Shown here: piece by piece, positions 3,037 through 15,693 of the stretch
How the letters are laid out: each line of letters begins with the position of its first letter
How positions within the stretch are numbered: the first letter of the stretch is position 1
Origin: Desulfurispirillum indicum S5
GTDB taxonomy: Bacteria > Chrysiogenota > Chrysiogenetes > Chrysiogenales > Chrysiogenaceae
Direction of reading: 5' to 3'
NCBI RefSeq assembly: GCF_000177635.2
Contig: NC_014836.1
Span: forward strand, 353,501 to 417,500
DNA: 64,000 nucleotides
Position numbers and translations under genes: made by a program
The notes under the pieces: generated by a model
Database searches by the model: none
What the model was told of the DNA's origin: nothing
What the model saw: only the letters and a program-made list of their open reading frames with translations

Positions 3037-3810
3037 ATGGAATTTCTCATCGTCTGTATCGCTGCGTTGACGGCCTCTTTGCTGACACTCTTTTCCGGTT
3101 TTGGACTGGGCACACTGCTCATGCCAGTGATTGCGCTGTTCTTTCCACTGGAGCTGGCCATAGCCATGACGGCCATGGTTCATCTGGCCAATAATATTTT
3201 CAAGGTTGGACTCATGGGGCGGAAGGCCGATGTGTCGGTGCTGGTGCGGTTTGGCCTGCCTGCCGTGGCAGCAGCCTTTGCGGGTGCCGTGGTGCTGCTC
3301 TGGCTTGGGGAGATGCCTTCGCTGCACACCTATGCCGTGGGGGGACGGGAATTCCACATTTCTGCCCTGAAACTTGTTATCGGCTTTCTCATCATGTTTT
3401 TCGTCATACTGGAAATTTCTCCGGCATTTTCCCGCCTCGCCCTGGATCGCAAGTGGCTTCCCTTTGGGGGAGTGATCAGCGGGTTCTTTGGGGGACTATC
3501 GGGCCACCAGGGGGCGTTTCGCAGCATGTTTCTGATCAAGGCTGGTTTGAGCAAGGAAGCTTTTGTGGCCACTGGTGTGGTGTTGGCGGTCATGGTGGAT
3601 ATATCCCGCCTGGTAATCTACGGCACGGATATTCTGGCGCGCAGCCAGGCGGTTGATTGGCAACTTGTGATTGCTGCCAGTGGAGCGGCCTTTGCGGGGG
3701 CGTACCTGGGCGCGAAAATCCTGGGAAAGATAACCCTGCATACAGTACGTGCCGTGGTATCCGTTGTGCTGGCGCTGGTCGCCGCTGGGATGATGACGGG
3801 ACTGCTGTAA
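3037..3810 (+). CDS. TauE/SafE family membrane transporter
   Basis: The 257-residue product is almost wholly hydrophobic with about eight membrane segments and two related halves, as in the TauE/SafE (TSUP) family of sulfite, sulfoacetate or organic anion exporters. The glycine-rich SGFFGGLSGHQGAFRS stretch near residue 150 is a family signature. A good ribosome site (GGAGG) lies eight bases before the ATG. The gene starts 64 bases after the anti-sigma gene on the same strand, so it could belong to that unit. The substrate cannot be read from the sequence; sulfite or a related sulfur anion is a reasonable guess. Confidence 0.8.
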   Translation: MEFLIVCIAALTASLLTLFSGFGLGTLLMPVIALFFPLELAIAMTAMVHLANNIFKVGLMGRKADVSVLVRFGLPAVAAAFAGAVVLLWLGEMPSLHTYAVGGREFHISALKLVIGFLIMFFVILEISPAFSRLALDRKWLPFGGVISGFFGGLSGHQGAFRSMFLIKAGLSKEAFVATGVVLAVMVDISRLVIYGTDILARSQAVDWQLVIAASGAAFAGAYLGAKILGKITLHTVRAVVSVVLALVAAGMMTGLL

Positions 3811-6680: not shown

Positions 6681-7253
6681 CTACGCTTTGCGCAGTATCA
6701 GGCCGTAGTGGTAGGGCGGGAAGTCAAACACAGTGCCAGGGCTGCATTCCAGCCCTGCCTGCTTGCCCCATTGTATGCACTGCTGCGGCGTGGGGCGGAT
6801 ATCCATGGCTGGCCCTCTGGGAGTAGCGGGATCGGGATTCCAGTGGATAATAGCAATGCGACCGCCTCGAACCAGTGCAGAGCTGGCTTCTCGCAACAGT
6901 GTCAGGGGCTGCTCGTGGTGGAGAATATTGAAGAGCAGGGCGACATCCATGCTGCCAGGCGGCAGACCGGTACCCTCGACGATGAAATCACGAACCTGAA
7001 CATGTACGTTTGCGATATTGCTTCGGGCACATTTCTCTTTTACTCGCTGGACCATGGAGGGTTCGATATCCAGAGCGTAGACAGTTCCATGAATCAAGGC
7101 GGCAGCCGCCAGGGTGAATGTTCCATAGCCACTGCCAAATTCCACGATGTCCTGCGTGTCTTTGTTCAGGCCCAAACTTTGCAAAATACGCTCAGCGTCA
7201 AAAAAGCTCTCCCACAGCATCTCTTCGGGCATGCCACTGTCACGGACTTTCAT
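6681..7253 (-). CDS. class I SAM-dependent methyltransferase
   Basis: The 190-residue protein has SAM motif I (VEFGSGYGTFTLAAA, about residue 39), an acidic motif II (YALDIEPSMV) and the motif IV region (VALLFNILHHEQP), the usual class I Rossmann methyltransferase order. The substrate is not evident. It is the last gene of an ArsR-led operon, 14 bases after the DsrE-like gene. It is too short for an arsenite methyltransferase, and its cysteines (KEKCARS, PQQCIQW, LECSPG) do not form the spaced set of ArsM, so ArsM is unlikely. Confidence 0.8.
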   Translation of the reverse strand: MKVRDSGMPEEMLWESFFDAERILQSLGLNKDTQDIVEFGSGYGTFTLAAAALIHGTVYALDIEPSMVQRVKEKCARSNIANVHVQVRDFIVEGTGLPPGSMDVALLFNILHHEQPLTLLREASSALVRGGRIAIIHWNPDPATPRGPAMDIRPTPQQCIQWGKQAGLECSPGTVFDFPPYHYGLILRKA

Positions 7254-7267
7254 ATGGTATCACTCCA

Positions 7268-7624
7268 TCAAAAACTCAGGACGCGATCGCTGTCCACAAC
7301 CCACTGGGAAAGCTGCTGCATGGTGGACTTTTCGGCACCTTCGAAATAGGGTTCATTTTTGTAAATTCCGCAACGGGCCATGCAGGTACCGCACACTTTG
7401 ACGGGGATGCCCTGGGCTATCAGTTCCCGGAGCATCTGGCTCAGGTCCTGATCATAACCCTCGGGCGGAACGCAGCTATTGCGGGCCATATCCACGGCAT
7501 CGTTCATCAGAAAGACGCGCACTTCCTGAGCGTCCTTATGCAGCTGTTCCGCCAGGCGCAGGCCATTCCAGGTGACGTCGGTGTTATCGTAGGGTTCGCG
7601 ATTGAAGATGAGCAGAACTTTCAT
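7268..7624 (-). CDS. DsrE/DsrF-like sulfur-transfer family protein
   Basis: The 118-residue protein has the DsrE fold signature (MKVLLIFNREPYD, then GLRLAEQLHK and VRVFLMNDAV) and a cysteine cluster VCGTCMARCGI near residues 78-88, in the position where DsrE/TusD-type proteins carry their persulfide cysteine. Such proteins accept sulfane sulfur from desulfurases or rhodaneses and pass it on. It sits 11 bases after a cysteine desulfurase gene, which makes it the probable acceptor. The three-cysteine motif (C-x2-C-x3-C) could also bind a metal or metalloid. Confidence 0.8.
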   Translation of the reverse strand: MKVLLIFNREPYDNTDVTWNGLRLAEQLHKDAQEVRVFLMNDAVDMARNSCVPPEGYDQDLSQMLRELIAQGIPVKVCGTCMARCGIYKNEPYFEGAEKSTMQQLSQWVVDSDRVLSF

Positions 7625-7635
7625 GATAGCCTCCT

Positions 7636-8769
7636 TTATGTTGGGTTATGGGTATTCACAACTTGTGTCAGGAGCTCCAGCACCCTCTGCAGCTCCGCAT
7701 ATTTGGTGTTACGCCCCAGGCTGAAGCGCACCGCTCCCATGCCCGCACTTACGGGAACTCCCATGGCTTCAAGCACCGGCGAGAGGCTGATAGCGCCAGC
7801 GTGGCAGGCCGAGCCAGTGGATGCCGCCACTTCCGGCATTTGCTCCAGGATTTCCGCGCCGATAGCACCGTGAAAGTTCACGTTGAGAGTATTGGGAAGG
7901 CGTTCAGTGGGGTGTCCGTTAAGACTGATGCGGTTGCCGAATTGGTTTTGCAGGTGTTGCCAGAATTCATCACGCATGGCGATCATTTCAGCGGCTCCTG
8001 TCCACTCTCCTGCCAGTTCGCAGGCAGCACCCAGGGCTACATTCAGCAGAACGTTTTCCGTTCCTGCGCGGCGGCCTGCCTCGTGGGCCGCCCCATGCAC
8101 AAGAGGCACGATGGGCGTTCCTTCGCGGATGTACAGGGCTCCCACCCCCTTGGGTGCAGAGAGCTTGTGTCCGGCAACACTGAGCAAATCAACGCCCAAG
8201 GCATCCATCACCGTGGGAATTTTCCCCACACTCTGGGCAGCATCGGTGTGGAACAGTATGCCTGCTGCCCTGGCAATTTCCCCAATGGCTTCTATTGGTT
8301 GAATGGTTCCGGTTTCATTATTGGCGTGCATGATGGAAATAAGGATGGTGTCTTTGTCGATTGCCCGGCGCACCTGCTCCGGGTCAACCATTCCGTAGCC
8401 GTCAACCGGCAGTCTGGTTATCCGCGCGCCCAGGCTTTCCAGAAAGCGACAGGGCTCCAGTACAGCTGGATGCTCCACAGCGCTGGTAATAATGTGGTTT
8501 CCTTGATAGCGCAGGGCAAAATAGACGCCCTTGATGGCGTGGTTGTTGGCTTCGCTGCCACCACTGGTAAAGACGACTTCGGTCGGGTCGCAATCCAGCA
8601 GGTTGGCCACCTGGCCGCGTGCTGCCTCCAGGGCATCTTTGGCACCGCTGCTGGCCCAGTGCTGGCTGGAAGGATTACCGAAGTGATCCTCCAGATATGG
8701 CTGCATGGCAGCCAGTACTTCCGGGGCAACGGGAGTACTGGCGTTGGAGTCAAGGTAGATCAGGCTCAC
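7636..8769 (-). CDS. cysteine desulfurase, NifS/IscS-like
   Basis: The 377-residue class V aminotransferase has the N-terminal IYLDSNASTPVAPEV motif, the PLP lysine in SVAGHKLSAPKGVGAL, the HTDAAQ motif and a catalytic cysteine loop STGSACHAGA near residue 320, resembling group I (IscS/NifS) desulfurases. It removes sulfur from L-cysteine to make a protein persulfide and alanine. The start overlaps the upstream arsR stop by four bases (ATGA). The ArsR lead gene and absence of iscU suggest a dedicated sulfur-trafficking role rather than housekeeping Fe-S assembly. Confidence 0.9.
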   Translation of the reverse strand: MSLIYLDSNASTPVAPEVLAAMQPYLEDHFGNPSSQHWASSGAKDALEAARGQVANLLDCDPTEVVFTSGGSEANNHAIKGVYFALRYQGNHIITSAVEHPAVLEPCRFLESLGARITRLPVDGYGMVDPEQVRRAIDKDTILISIMHANNETGTIQPIEAIGEIARAAGILFHTDAAQSVGKIPTVMDALGVDLLSVAGHKLSAPKGVGALYIREGTPIVPLVHGAAHEAGRRAGTENVLLNVALGAACELAGEWTGAAEMIAMRDEFWQHLQNQFGNRISLNGHPTERLPNTLNVNFHGAIGAEILEQMPEVAASTGSACHAGAISLSPVLEAMGVPVSAGMGAVRFSLGRNTKYAELQRVLELLTQVVNTHNPT

Positions 8770-9110
8770 TCTTTCACCTCCGCAGATAACTCCTTCTCCC
8801 GCTGAATCTGCTCCTTTGTCTTGTGGATAGGACTACGCTCCTGGGCCAGCAAGTCAAAGAAACCGGCCACCAACTGGGGGCGGCTGAGGTAGTAGCAGCG
8901 CAGGGCACCGTCCTGGGCAAAGTCCACAAGGCCGGCATGGCGCAGCACCGCCAGGTGCTGGGAGATATTGGCCTGGGATACGGGCAGGATGTCTTCCATG
9001 TCCGTAACACAGCGCGTTCCCTGCAGCAGTTCAGCGGCAATCAGCAGACGGGTTGGATGGGCCAGGGCTTTGAGTATGGCCGCCCAGTTTTGCGACTGTT
9101 CAGAGTGCAT
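8766..9110 (-). CDS. ArsR/SmtB family transcriptional repressor
   Basis: The 114-residue winged-helix protein matches ArsR/SmtB repressors (LKALAHPTRLLIAAELL, then SQANISQHLAVLRHAGLVDFAQDG). Only one cysteine is visible, in GTRCVTDMEDIL, at the site where ArsR itself has two or three, so the inducer is uncertain: redox, persulfide or metal sensing are all possible. It is the first gene of a four-gene operon and its start is preceded by AAGGAG. A perfect 16-bp palindrome covers its own -10 region, implying self-repression. Confidence 0.88.
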   Translation of the reverse strand: MHSEQSQNWAAILKALAHPTRLLIAAELLQGTRCVTDMEDILPVSQANISQHLAVLRHAGLVDFAQDGALRCYYLSRPQLVAGFFDLLAQERSPIHKTKEQIQREKELSAEVKE

Positions 9111-9124
9111 GGGTACTCCTTAAT

Positions 9125-9168
9125 GGATATTCGAATATCCTTATATGTCATAATAAGGGCTATGGCAA
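9125..9168 (-). promoter_or_regulatory. promoter and palindromic operator of the arsR-desulfurase operon
   Basis: On the minus strand, TTGCCA (9163-9168) and TATAAG (9140-9145) are separated by 17 bases. A perfect 16-bp palindrome, GGATATTCGAATATCC, at 9125-9140 starts within the -10 hexamer and covers the expected start point, a typical place for an ArsR-family operator. The repressor gene begins 15 bases beyond the palindrome. Operator function is inferred. Confidence 0.7.
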
Positions 9169-9973: not shown

Positions 9974-10654
9974 TCATGGGCAATACTCCTGTGGATCGGC
10001 ATGGGAATCTGCGGCTAGCAATCGAATATCGGCGTACCAGGCGCGGGCCTGGCTGCCGGTATTGTCAGTATCGGTCATCAGGGCAATGGCGCCAGCTTTT
10101 GGAGGTATGCTTCCAAATATTTCCCGGTAGTCCTGGTAGACATTGCGGCACTGGGTAATCCAGGTTCCGGCATGCTGGTTGCCACTTTGCACGGCTACCA
10201 TACGGGCATTGCTGAAGAAGGGGTTGGGTACCACCTGCCCCTGGGGCAAATGGTTGGCCCAGATATAGTTGATACTTTTGGTATTGGGGCGAAACCAGTG
10301 GGGAAAGACCACATACACCCGTGCTGCGTAGTCGTCCCCGGCTTTGGTCAGGGCATTGCCATCGGGGATGATGTTTTCCACCTTCCAGCGCCACTGCAGA
10401 ATGGGGTATGTGGCGAGATCAATCTCAACTTCATGCACCAGGCCCGATGCCTGGTTCTGGCTGCTGGCCTGCAATGCCAGCGTTCCTTCCTCTTCCACCA
10501 GCTCATAATGGGTGGGGCTGGTGCCGCGAAACTCCTGGGCTTGCCACTGCGGGCTGATACCGTCCTGTATACTCCCAAAGGGCAGGGGAATAGATGAAGC
10601 CCCGAAGGCAGCTGAACCCAGGAGAAACACCAGGGCCATGGAGCCGACTCTCAT
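9974..10654 (-). CDS. exported DUF3047 family protein
   Basis: The 226-residue protein begins with a signal-like stretch (MRVGSMALVFLLGSAAFGAS) and then fits the DUF3047 family: a beta-rich region with PILQWRWKVE, GDDYAARVYVVF, SINYIWANHLP and a C-terminal IALMTDTDNTGSQARAWYADI. The family has no assigned function. The start is fixed by a four-base ATGA overlap with the radical SAM stop; any longer reading would overlap that gene further. In my recollection of genomes, DUF3047 genes recur beside ArsS-type radical SAM and TVP38 genes, as here. Confidence 0.75.
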   Translation of the reverse strand: MRVGSMALVFLLGSAAFGASSIPLPFGSIQDGISPQWQAQEFRGTSPTHYELVEEEGTLALQASSQNQASGLVHEVEIDLATYPILQWRWKVENIIPDGNALTKAGDDYAARVYVVFPHWFRPNTKSINYIWANHLPQGQVVPNPFFSNARMVAVQSGNQHAGTWITQCRNVYQDYREIFGSIPPKAGAIALMTDTDNTGSQARAWYADIRLLAADSHADPQEYCP

Positions 10655-11625
10655 GCGATGGCCCCGCCACAGGAGCTGCCCGCCCCGGCGGTGCAGCCGA
10701 AGCAGTGCGAGGCGGTGGCGATGGAGCGGGGGATCTGCTCCAGGTTTTGCACATCCCAGATATGCAGAGGTGTACCACCTATGGGCAGGCCTGCCATCTG
10801 GTTGAAGTCGCAGTCGTAGAGGCTGCCATCCCAGGCTACTGATACTTGCTGCATGCACATAAGGTTGTGGGCGGCCGCAGGGTTGAAGTTGTCCACCAGC
10901 AGCTGCATATAGTCGTCATACTGCCCGTGCTGTCGCAGGTGGCGGGCGTAGCGGGTGACGGGAATATTGGTAAGAGTGTAGAGATGGTTGAAGAGGATGC
11001 CGTAGTGCTGGGCCAGCTGCTGACGGTAGGATTCCTCCAGTGCCGACTGGCTGGGGGGCAGGTGGGCGCCGCCGGGGTTATACACCAGGTTCAACTTCAG
11101 GCTGCTGCCCGGCTGGCCATAGCCCAGTCCATTGAGCAGGTGCAGCCCCCGTATGCTTTTGTCAAAAACACCTTCGCCCCGCTGGCGGTTGACGTTGTCT
11201 TCCAGGTAGCAGGGCAGGGAGGCGATGACTTCCACACCATGTTCGGCCAGAAAGGCGGCGGTATCTTCCTGCCCGGGTTCAAAGAGCACACTGAGGTTGC
11301 AGCGATGCAAAAGCGTTCTGCCCATGGCATGCACTGTGCGCACAAAGGCCCGGAAGTGGGGATTTAATTCCGGCGCGCCCCCGGTGATGTCCACGGTGTG
11401 CACTCCAGGAGCATTCTGCAGCAGCTCCACCAGTCGCTGGAAAGTGGTGGCCTCCATCATCTCGCTGCGCAGCGGACCAGCTTCCACATGGCAGTGGGTA
11501 CAGGACTGGTTGCAGACCTTGCCTACATTGATCTGCAGGGTAGTGATGGGCTGACGTTTGATGGCAATTCCATAGGTATCAAGAACATGCCCAAACGTGG
11601 GAATATGGCACTGCAGACTTGGCAT
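10651..11625 (-). CDS. arsS: radical SAM protein, arsenosugar biosynthesis ArsS family
   Basis: The product has the radical SAM cluster motif CNQSCTHC (C-x3-C-x2-C) near residue 42, followed by the SAM-binding VDITGGAPELN, and a C-terminal cysteine-rich region (LMCMQQVSVAWDGSLYDCDFN, then CFGCTAGAGSSCGG). This layout matches the ArsS group, which in cyanobacteria adds a deoxyadenosyl group to dimethylarsenite with ArsM as partner. Some relatives use selenocysteine, but all codons at those sites here are cysteine. The start at 11625 (MPSLQCHIP) has GGAG eight bases upstream. No arsM is in the window, so an arsenosugar product is uncertain. Confidence 0.8.
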   Translation of the reverse strand: MPSLQCHIPTFGHVLDTYGIAIKRQPITTLQINVGKVCNQSCTHCHVEAGPLRSEMMEATTFQRLVELLQNAPGVHTVDITGGAPELNPHFRAFVRTVHAMGRTLLHRCNLSVLFEPGQEDTAAFLAEHGVEVIASLPCYLEDNVNRQRGEGVFDKSIRGLHLLNGLGYGQPGSSLKLNLVYNPGGAHLPPSQSALEESYRQQLAQHYGILFNHLYTLTNIPVTRYARHLRQHGQYDDYMQLLVDNFNPAAAHNLMCMQQVSVAWDGSLYDCDFNQMAGLPIGGTPLHIWDVQNLEQIPRSIATASHCFGCTAGAGSSCGGAIA

Positions 11626-11704
11626 ATGAGCTCCGGGTAATAGTTTTCCTGTATATTCGCCATTTAATAAGGAAAAGTTACAGCATAAGTAACTCTTCAC
11701 GGTG

Positions 11705-11974: not shown

Positions 11975-14900
11975 TCAACCAGCGCCAAATCCTCCGCCTC
12001 CCGGTGTCTGTACCACAACCACATCACCCTTTTGCATGGTGGCTTTACCGGTGCTCAGCAGCACTTCTTTCGTGCCGTCGCGGCGCTCCACCCAGCAGTG
12101 GCCGGTGGCTCCATTGCTTCCGCCCTGCAGGCCGCTGGGGGCGACCTGGTGGCTGTTGGCGAGGATGGCGACTTCCATGGGCTCCAGGGTGCGGATGCGC
12201 CGCTCGGCGCCATTGCCGCCTTGCCACGTGCCTGCGCCTCCCGATCCATGGCGAATGGAGAAGCTTTCCAGCAGGACGGGGAAGCGGGTTTCCAGGATTT
12301 CGGGGTCGGTGAGGCGGCTGTTGGTCATGTGGACGTGGACGGCGCTGGCGCCGTGAAAGCCGTTACCGGCTCCAGCTCCGCCACAGAGGGTTTCGTAGTG
12401 CTGGTAGCGGCTGTTGCCAAAGGTGAGGTTGTTCATGGTGCCCTGGCTGTTGGCCAGTACGCCCAGGGCGGCGTAGAGGGTATCGGTGATGACCTGGCTG
12501 ACTTCCACGTTGCCGGCGACGACGGCGGCGGGGTAAGTGGGGCTGAGCATGGAGCCCTGGGGGATGATGAGCTGGATGGGCTTGAGGCAGCCGTCGTTGA
12601 GGGGGATATTGTCCTGCACGAGGGTGCGCAGGGCGTAGAGCACGGCGGCGCGGGTGACGGCGCGGGGCGCGTTGAAGTTGCCGGGCTGCTGGGGGGAGCT
12701 GCCGGTGAAGTCGACGGTGGCGCTGCGATGGTGGCGGTCGACGCGGATGGTTACGCGGATGCGGGCACCGCAATCCATGATTTTTTCCCACTGGCCATCT
12801 TCCAGGACGTGGAGCACCCGGCGCACCTGCTCCTCGGCGTTGTCCTGCACGTGCTGCATATAGGCGTGGACGACGGGCAGGCTGTAGTGGTCGACCATTT
12901 TATGGAGTTCCCGCACGCCGCAGTTGTTGGCGGCGATCTGGGCTTTGAGGTCGCTGATGTTCTGGTCGGGGTTGCGGGCTGGGTGAGCACCGCTGCTGAA
13001 GAGTCGGCGCACTTGCGGTTCCAGCAGTTGGCCGTCCCTGACCACCTGGAAGTTGGTGATCAGGACCCCTTCGTCTTCAATGGCCCGGCTGTCGGGGGGC
13101 ATGGAACCGGGGGTAATGCCACCGATATCGGCGTGGTGGGCGCGGCTGGCCACATAGAAGAGAATTTCGGCGCCGCTGTGGTCAAAGACGGGGGTGACCA
13201 CGGTGACATCGGGCAGGTGGGTGCCGCCCTGGTAGGGGTCGTTGAGCATATACACATCGCCGGGCCGCATGGTGCCCTGGCGCTGCTGAAGAATGGCCCG
13301 TACGCTTTCGCCCATGGAGCCAAGGTGCACGGGCACGTGGGGAGCATTGGCCACCAGGGCGCCGCCATGGTCGAAGATGGCGCAGGAGAAGTCCAGGCGT
13401 TCCTTGATGTTGGCGGAGCTGGCGGTCTTTTCCAGGGTGGTGCCCATCTGCTCGGCGATGGACATGAAGAGGTTGTTGAACACTTCCAGCATGACCGGGT
13501 CCACCTCCGTGCCCACGGCGTACTGCCGGGGGCGCGCCTGATAGCGCTCCAGGATGATGTGTCCCTTGGGGTTGACGCTGGCCTGCCAGCCTGGCTCCAC
13601 CACGATGGTGCCCACCGGCTCCTGAATAATGGCCGGGCCCTGCAGGCAGTGGCCGGGCTGCAGGTACTGGCGGTCATGGACGGGGGTGGCGTCGTGAAAG
13701 GTGCCCGCCATGAAGGTGCGCACCAGGTCCAGGGGCTTGGGGAGTGGGCCTGCGGGGGAAGGAAGGTCGGGTTCGTCCTGCAGGCTGGCGCTTCGGCTGA
13801 TGACTTCCACCACGGCGGCACTGACCAGCAGGGGCGTATCGGGGGTGCAGAAGCCAAACTGCTGCTGATGGAGGGCTTCGAAGCCATGGCGAATGGATCC
13901 GACGCTTCCGAAATCCACCAGCAGGGAGGTGTCGGTACCCTGGTAGCGCACCAGCAGCTGATGTCGGCTGTGGATGCTTTCCGGCGCGGCTCCCTGATCC
14001 AGCAGCTCCCTGCGGCCCTGCTGTTCCAGTTCATGGATGACCTGTTGCAGGCGCTCGCACAGGGTGGGGCTCAGGGGCTCCTCCACGGTGGCTTCGCCGA
14101 TGGTGGTCATGTCGGCCAGACCCATGCCATAGGCGGACAGAACTCCGGCCAGGGGATGAATCAGCACCCGTGGCATGCCCAGGGTATCGGCCACCAGGCA
14201 GGCGTGCTGGCCTCCGGCTCCGCCGAAGCAGTTGAGGGTGTAGTGGGTGATATCGTGGCCGCGCTGTACGGAAATGCGTTTGATGGCGTTGGCCATGTTT
14301 TCCACGGCGATCTTCAGGAAGCCTTCGGCCACCTCTTCGGGGCTGCGTGCATCGCCGGTGGCCGCGCGGATCTGCCGGGTCAGCTCCTGGAAATGCTCGG
14401 CGACAATTTCGGCATCCAGGGGCTCGTTGCCATGGGGGCCGAAGACGGCGGGGAAGAAGCGGGGCTGCAGCTTGCCCAGCATGACGTTGATATCGGTGAC
14501 GCTCAGGGGGCCACCGCGCCGGTAGCAGGCGGGGCCGGGGTCGGCTCCGGCGGAATCGGGGCCGACCCGGTAGCGGGAGCCATCAAAATGGAGGATGGAG
14601 CCGCCGCCAGCGGCCACGGTGTGAATGGTCATCATGGGGACGCGCATGCGCACTCCGGCGATGACGGTTTCAAAGCTGCGTTCCAGTTCGCCGCTATAGT
14701 GGGAAACATCGGTGGAGGTACCCCCCATGTCAAAGCCGATGACCTGGTCGTACCCCGCAATGCGGGCGGTGTGAATGCAGCCCACAATGCCGCCCGCCGG
14801 GCCGGACAGAATGGCGTCCTTGCCCGCAAAGCAGCGGGCATTGGTCAGGCCGCCATCGGATTTCATGAACTGCAGGCGGGTGTTGCCAAGGGCGGCTGCC

Positions 14901-15589
14901 ACCCGGTTGGCGTAACGCCGCAGGATGGGGGAGAGGTAGGCATCCACCACAGTGGTATCGCCCCGCCCCACAAACTTGATGAGGGGGCTGACCTGGTGGG
15001 AGACACTGACCTGGGGAAAACCCAGATCGCGGGCGATCCGGGCTACCTGCTGTTCGTGGCGGGGAAAGCGGTAGCCGTGGAGAAAGGCGATGGCACAAGA
15101 GCGCAGTCCACTGTTATATGCCCGCTGCAGCGCGTTTCGCACCTGCTGTTCGTCGGGGGCCTGCAGCACGGTGCCGTCGGCCATGATTCGCTCATCCACT
15201 TCCACCACATCGCCATAGAGCAGTTCTGGCAGGGCGATTTCCAGGGCGAAGATATGGGGACGGGCCTGATAGCCAATGCGCAGGGCATCGGCAAAGCCTT
15301 TGGTTATCAACAGGAGTGTGGGCTCGCCCTTGCGCTCCAGCAAGGCGTTGGTGGCGACGGTGGTGCCCATTTTCACCGCGTCGATGTGTTCGGGGGGAAT
15401 GGGGGCAGTGGTGTCCAGGCCCAGCAGGTCGCGAATGCCCTGGAGGGCGGCGTCATCATAGTGGCCGGGATTTTCAGAAAGCAGCTTGCGGGTGAGGATG
15501 GAGCCGTCTGGTGTGCGGGCGATGACATCGGTGAAGGTGCCGCCCCGGTCGATCCAGAACTGCCACTGTCTGGGGTTGCTTGGGTTCAT
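11975..15589 (-). CDS. 5-oxoprolinase / hydantoinase A-B fusion protein
   Basis: The 1204-residue protein joins a HyuA-type half ([14 protein letters not shown] at the N-terminus; [33 protein letters not shown]) to a HyuB-type half from about residue 700 ([58 protein letters not shown]). That is the full layout of ATP-dependent 5-oxoprolinase, which opens 5-oxoproline to glutamate in glutathione or peptide salvage; N-methylhydantoinase or acetophenone-carboxylase-like activities cannot be excluded. The start at 15589 has GGAG eight bases upstream. It stands alone in its unit. Confidence 0.88.
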
Positions 15590-15662
15590 GTCTGTCTCCG
15601 GTGAAGTTTCTTCCGGTGCCTGACTGTACCATGGACGGGCGCTGCTGAAAATTCCCCGACGC

Positions 15663-15693
15663 AAAAGGCCCTGAATCTTTACGATTCAGGGCC
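15663..15693 (-). terminator. intrinsic terminator after tRNA-Ser
   Basis: An 11-bp perfect stem (15667-15677 with 15683-15693, loop of five bases) is followed on the minus strand by TTTT. It lies 14 bases beyond the encoded CCA of the tRNA and ends that transcript. Confidence 0.85.

Follow-up and report, generated by a model that had tools for sequence, protein, structure and literature searches.

The genome of Desulfurispirillum indicum S5, a single contig of 2,928,377 bp, is that of an anaerobe described as respiring selenate and arsenate (PMC3368425, available part). On the minus strand of a 64-kb stretch of this genome, termed here the window, lies an operon of four genes that encode, in order of reading, an ArsR repressor, a cysteine desulfurase, a YchN-like protein of the DsrE family and a small methyltransferase (Table 1). 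The junctions between them are -4, +11 and +14 bases, and on the open reading frame coordinates these are exactly the values given in an earlier, sequence-only reading of the window. Ahead of the genes is a perfect palindrome of 16 bp, GGATATTCGAATATCC, which has one base in common with a TATAAG element that resembles a -10 sequence, an overlap that had also been pointed out. It is the sole copy in the window and found no match in 100 shuffles with up to two mismatches allowed; its 14-bp core occurs once in the whole genome. When the 229-bp intergenic region was shuffled by mononucleotides 5000 times, 20 of the shuffles contained a palindrome of at least 16 bp. The presumed promoter consists of a -35 TTGCCA (9168-9163), a spacer of 17 nt and the -10 TATAAG (9145-9140); a consensus promoter scan does not list this site, because the scan demands a T at the final -10 position.

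Table 1. Operon genes, presumed control elements and outlying transporter gene, in window coordinates
Feature	Position	Strand	Remarks
ArsR/SmtB-type repressor, no rhodanese domain	8766..9110	-	114 aa; NF033788, HTH_5
Class-V PLP cysteine desulfurase	7636..8769	-	377 aa, GTG start; Aminotran_5
YchN-like DsrE-family protein, presumed persulfide carrier	7268..7624	-	118 aa; DsrE Pfam
Class I SAM-dependent methyltransferase	6681..7253	-	190 aa; Methyltransf_25
16-bp perfect palindrome, presumed ArsR operator	9125..9140		
Presumed promoter TTGCCA-17-TATAAG	9140..9168	-	read by eye and pattern check
TauE/SafE-type transporter, probable outlying module member	3037..3810	+	TauE 80.7 bits

To which families do the four proteins belong? 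Family scans covered ten proteins, encoded by the operon and the genes flanking it. The repressor falls in NF033788 (NCBIfam HTH_metalloreg; 79.5 bits against a cut-off of 55) and outside the SqrR/BigR group, the BigR model giving 53.7 against 155. It has two cysteines, C34 and C72, and none after residue 72. The sequence-only reading had counted one; its genes, junctions, palindrome and three-cysteine DsrE motif were otherwise as described. The desulfurase is a class-V enzyme of the pyridoxal phosphate (PLP) type (Aminotran_5, 252 bits), with Lys202 and Cys322, the latter in STGSACHAG, in the expected motifs. It shares this class and the counterparts of both residues with NifS and IscS, but differs from them in its SACH/SPVL signature, in its grouping with desulfurases of the module described below and in its scores, which lie under the equivalog cut-offs (IscS 337 against 643, NifS 440 against 531). 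The methyltransferase has the Methyltransf_25 domain (50 bits) and the fold of class I S-adenosylmethionine (SAM)-dependent enzymes. Its model (pLDDT 88) comes nearest, among solved structures, to Aquifex 3dh0 (Z 24.4, root-mean-square deviation 2.0 over 181 residues, 22% identity), and Foldseek and VIA gave nothing beyond the general class I fold. An alignment of ten sequences (A1) shows SGMP..W..FF and HW..D..TPRGP...IRP.P..C to be invariant in the family.

The DsrE-like protein is a member of the DsrE/DsrF-like family with the active-site cysteine (DsrE Pfam, 73 bits against 22.7), and its CxxCxxxC motif is C78-x2-C81-x3-C85. E. coli YchN (PDB 1jx7) matches it over the full length (E 1.3e-18) and has the CxxC site, but lacks the third cysteine, C85. 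The AlphaFold model has a mean pLDDT of 95. Over all fetched loci, 99 of 117 DsrE matches (own and duplicate stretches included) carry CxxCxxxC, 15 carry CxxC only and three neither; one relative (L020, 3482-3835), 80% identical, has an arginine at the second motif cysteine. Selenocysteine in DsrE was considered and rejected, as none of the matches at E <= 1e-20 contains an in-frame stop. Proteins of this 118-aa YchN-like kind are strongly conserved across phyla, mostly with no constant neighbour.

Methyltransferase-DsrE and desulfurase-DsrE pairs turn up repeatedly, in distant phyla as well as on plasmids, and usually adjoin a gene for an ArsR protein that carries a rhodanese domain (ArsR-rhodanese). 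Three anchors, the DsrE-like protein, the methyltransferase and the desulfurase, retrieve overlapping partners (fetched loci carry L numbers). With DsrE, one scan of genome contigs gave 165 relatives; the 80 best-scoring ones (L019-L098; L089 and L094 are near-duplicates), which were kept, are 72-81% identical to the window protein and come from Bacteroidota, Proteobacteria, Cloacimonadota, Lentisphaerae and others. The methyltransferase stands directly upstream of DsrE in 13 of these 80 loci. Of these 13 loci, 12 have an ArsR gene no more than 3.5 kb away, a feature shared by 13 of the remaining 67 (Fisher p 9e-7, on rows that are not phylogenetically independent and with contig ends ignored). 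In 3/80 (L061, L069 and L081) DsrE directly follows a complete desulfurase gene, and in L024 a fragment of one.

The METHYLTRANSFERASE anchor brought in ten new loci (L107-L110, L116-L118 and the plasmids L111-L113). DsrE is clustered with it in seven (L107, L110, L111, L112, L113, L116 and L118), and all of these except L110 have ArsR-rhodanese as well (6/10); the L113 copy of the window-type methyltransferase is broken. The gene is infrequent: 6/398 Pseudomonadota genomes (two of the six known already), 3/399 and 2/347 genomes in two orders and 1/247 in a third group, centre genomes counted, and 3/78 genomes of one class, all three already among the found loci. Within the phylum of D. indicum, the only one of 49 genomes to have it is that of D. 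indicum itself; 10/50 have DsrE, the organism's own included, with five others at 51-58% and another four that are remote. Inheritance within the phylum therefore fails to explain the operon and was rejected as its origin.

With the desulfurase as anchor, a profile search of one order matched 3/199 genomes (L129-L131), each of which has the desulfurase directly downstream of DsrE, with ArsR-rhodanese close by. DsrE also adjoins this desulfurase kind in L061, L069, L081, L113 and L121. A sample of Pseudomonadota contained it in 0/200 genomes, and the operon-type desulfurase is therefore rare. The window enzyme is 62-68% identical to copies on four alphaproteobacterial plasmids, of Microvirga, Rhizobium sullae, Nitratireductor and Methylocystis. 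Eight plasmid records hold close desulfurases, and among the six neighbourhoods read (H29 and H30 were left out) DsrE occurs in two (L113, L121) and ArsR-rhodanese in three (L113, L121, L123). In a tree, the operon desulfurase joins three alphaproteobacterial plasmid copies in a clade of four (support 96/97), apart from E. coli IscS and the paralogues that the genome holds. Could it be a spare housekeeping enzyme with chance neighbours? The 440 bits of the NifS model would suit that view, but the genome holds a separate desulfurase adjoining a NifU-like gene, and the recurring neighbours, with DsrE beside this desulfurase kind in three of three genomes and in the five further loci, already contradict it; we consider it very improbable. 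Two irregular copies were seen: on the Nitratireductor plasmid (L122, 6001-7103) the desulfurase is split over two frames, with a methyltransferase nearby that we take, from resemblance, to be METTL7-like, and in L127 the desulfurase match carries one in-frame TGA.

A search for the four-gene order in other genomes had been proposed with the sequence-only reading, scattering of the genes being what would count against it. The outcome is divided: the exact order of the window was found in no other locus examined, but pairs and triples recur, and L113 and L130 each combine all four functions, arranged differently and with methyltransferases of other families. In L130, ArsR-rhodanese is divergent from genes for a metallo-beta-lactamase-fold (MBL) protein, DsrE, desulfurase, methyltransferase, an MFS transporter and a PNP-type protein. 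In the Methylocystis plasmid L113, it is divergent from MBL, MFS, SHOCT, DsrE and desulfurase genes, followed by a methyltransferase-PNP fusion and another methyltransferase. The fusion (1440-2972) joins a methyltransferase to a phosphorylase-superfamily (PNP_UDP_1) domain; a PNP-type gene of its own adjoins the module in L044 and L120, belongs to it in L130 and is close to ArsR-rhodanese in L121. Several distinct small methyltransferase families are present in the module clusters, and because they recur there, methylation seems to be part of what the module does.

The partners speak to chemistry. MBL genes are found in L112, L113, L120, L121 and L130, and among the PDB structures that match such a protein best are MBL-rhodanese enzymes and persulfide dioxygenases. 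Rhodaneses, TusA and TauE transporters are other partners, as are a Cys/Met gamma-lyase, a further PLP enzyme with sulfur amino acids as substrates (L076/L103, L098, L132), and a thiamine-pyrophosphate enzyme (L038, L061, L067). The rhodanese of most relatives' ArsR regulators is a sulfane-sulfur-binding fold. Sulfur handling by the module is thus well supported by gene association. On the Streptomyces mirabilis plasmid L123 (4276-9617), ArsR-rhodanese, desulfurase, a gamma-lyase-type enzyme, a carboxymuconolactone decarboxylase-like (CMD) gene, MFS and TusA follow consecutively, with MBL and MFS divergent from that row. Relatives of the window TauE gene (53-58% identity) are in exactly four fetched loci, L058, L071, L111 and L132, and every one carries the methyltransferase-DsrE module; judged by this co-occurrence, the TauE gene of the window, 3 kb off the operon and beyond the coordinates of the sequence-only reading, probably belongs to the module. 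L132 (1807-11619) has TauE, a ChrA-type transporter, PadR, ArsR-rhodanese, methyltransferase and DsrE, and after DsrE a gamma-lyase, a second methyltransferase and then a Tn3 resolvase and transposase. The module is a recurring and partly mobile one, of a known general kind.

Which known systems does it resemble? The sulfane-sulfur ArsR operons (SqrR, BigR, SoxR, sHdrR) likewise place a two-cysteine ArsR before sulfur-handling genes. SqrR/BigR/Cst-type sulfide-stress operons typically hold a persulfide dioxygenase or a sulfide-quinone reductase; in the window operon their place is taken by a desulfurase, a YchN-like protein and a methyltransferase, and neither the dioxygenase nor the reductase is among the ten scanned proteins, which sets the operon outside the Cst/BigR type. 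The operon thus resembles these sulfide-stress operons and matches no named family tested, in agreement with the sequence-only reading, which knew of no named system with this content. Among open-licence PubMed Central papers, searches for this combination of genes listed no title or abstract opening that describes it, and the available part of PMC10433974 has nothing on this gene set. Known ArsR sulfur sensors act via two cysteines, and in the sulfane-sulfur ArsR operons reactive sulfur bridges the cysteines and ends repression (PMC12423496, available part). In the window ArsR the two cysteines are at other positions. The C34/C72 pair is common to the rhodanese-less ArsR proteins beside DsrE in L036, L059, L060 and L084; those of L023 and L079 have neither cysteine, and ArsR-rhodanese proteins are without both. 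This distribution fits two alternative sulfur-sensing designs, a C34/C72 ArsR and an ArsR-rhodanese. As C34 and C72 are not the SqrR/BigR pair, the sensing chemistry is something we infer.

We put at about even chances the reading of the operon as a reactive-sulfur response module, in which the desulfurase supplies persulfide to DsrE and the methyltransferase acts on the sulfur product. ArsR, sitting on the palindrome at the -10/start region, would hold the operon off. Sulfane sulfur, as persulfide or polysulfide, would bond to C34 and C72, releasing ArsR so that the operon is expressed. Cysteine would be the sulfur source of the desulfurase, which might form a Cys322 persulfide and pass that sulfur on to the DsrE-like carrier at its CxxCxxxC motif. 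Carrier-held or released sulfur (sulfide, persulfide or a derived thiol) would be methylated to a less reactive product, and the TauE-type transporter may carry a sulfur anion. The sequence-only reading had spoken of a dedicated persulfide-producing and methylating pathway; recurring neighbourhoods from three anchors support a persulfide-handling operon with a methylation step; its methylation target is one that we infer. Sulfur as acceptor is plausible by analogy, because UbiE/UbiG-type sulfide and methanethiol methyltransferases exist. The bacterial H2S/methanethiol S-methyltransferases MddH, MddM1 and MddM2 are of this type (PMC12904073, available part); like the window methyltransferase they are, by description, small class I enzymes, and a term search of that paper found no mention of ArsR, DsrE or rhodanese.

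Several observations weigh against this reading, the indirect case for sulfur as methyl acceptor among them. A rhodanese domain is missing from the window ArsR, whose cysteines differ from the SqrR/BigR pair: an alanine aligns with the first sensing cysteine of SqrR, at what we take to be the position of that residue. Among the ten scanned proteins there is no MBL or rhodanese gene. Most DsrE relatives are without the other operon genes, the methyltransferase being absent from 67/80, and three of the ten methyltransferase loci (L108, L109, L117) have no DsrE or ArsR-rhodanese within about 5 kb. The entry title of 3dh0, the nearest solved methyltransferase, states no function.

TusBCD relatives of DsrE thiolate tRNA. 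Might DsrE in the operon give its sulfur to a tRNA base, a cofactor or a peptide, with the methyltransferase completing the product? The TusD model does match the DsrE-like protein weakly, and the many invariant polar residues of the methyltransferase besides the SAM motifs suggest a definite acceptor. The TusD score (28.8 against an equivalog cut-off of 89.25) leaves the protein outside TusBCD/DsrEFH, and no further DsrE-type gene is among the ten scanned proteins. The rarity of the module, as counted above for the methyltransferase (6/398, 3/399 and 2/347 genomes), its mobility, with a Tn3 transposase adjoining in L132, and the stress-response look of its regulators and partners make such a thiolation pathway unlikely.

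A selenium version has the desulfurase acting as a selenocysteine/cysteine lyase and DsrE carrying selenium, with volatile methylselenides as the product of the methyltransferase. The GSACH motif presumably resembles that of animal selenocysteine lyases, such lyases are among the PDB matches of the desulfurase, and the YciW-type protein encoded next door is of a family with selenoprotein members. D. indicum respires selenate and forms electron-dense granules in selenium (PMC3368425, available part). Against these stand the SclA model, which at 117.5 bits (cut-off 525) does not make the enzyme a selenocysteine lyase of that family, the best PDB matches, which are cysteine desulfurases (318 bits against 226 for the best lyase), and the place of the module beside sulfur genes in Methylocystis, Azotobacter, Rhizobium and Streptomyces. 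We regard this version as quite unlikely.

Neighbouring genes bring up metals and metalloids. An ArsS-type radical SAM gene (10651-11700, minus strand; TIGR04167, 446 bits against 300) is 1.5 kb upstream, followed on the same strand by a DUF3047 gene and a YciW-like CMD gene. The ArsR might sense arsenite or a soft metal, which would then be thiolated and methylated, and C34 opens a CVTD motif that we assume to resemble an ArsR metal site. L132, the Tn3-linked locus, has a gene of the chromate-transporter family, and on the Legionella plasmid L114 DsrE is beside arsenic and copper genes. The host respires arsenate (PMC3368425, available part). The operon methyltransferase is nevertheless no ArsM (arsenite methyltransferase PRK11873 20.7 bits against 263, ArsM_AhpD 34 against 510), sulfur-enzyme partners are commoner than metal genes, and ArsS, DUF3047 and the window-type CMD have no relative in any fetched foreign locus and are therefore treated as a separate, arsenic-related cluster. 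Metal(loid) detoxification is accordingly an improbable role. An arsenosugar link of ArsS, DUF3047 and CMD, directly upstream on the operon strand, was rejected. The CMD gene near the desulfurase on the S. mirabilis plasmid is a different one. Further along (11975-15664, minus strand) hydantoinase/oxoprolinase A and B domains are fused in a single reading frame of 1229 aa.

What would a reactive-sulfur response module mean? A more specific proposal, possible though doubtful, is a mobile disposal system induced by sulfane sulfur, in which the DsrE carrier presents persulfide to a dedicated methyltransferase and reactive sulfur (or selenium) leaves in methylated form. Three parts would then be swappable: the source of sulfur (desulfurase or gamma-lyase), the sensor (an ArsR with two cysteines, or ArsR-rhodanese) and the methyltransferase. 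If true, disposal by methylation would constitute a route beside oxidation by persulfide dioxygenases, and bacteria would possess a transferable means to sense reactive sulfur and remove it by carrier-mediated methylation. It might also add to the genes from which methylated sulfur gases arise. Because its partners recur, the pathway can be tested in plasmid-bearing laboratory strains, and for the DsrE/YchN-like proteins, well conserved across phyla and mostly functionless on record, it would provide a first testable job.

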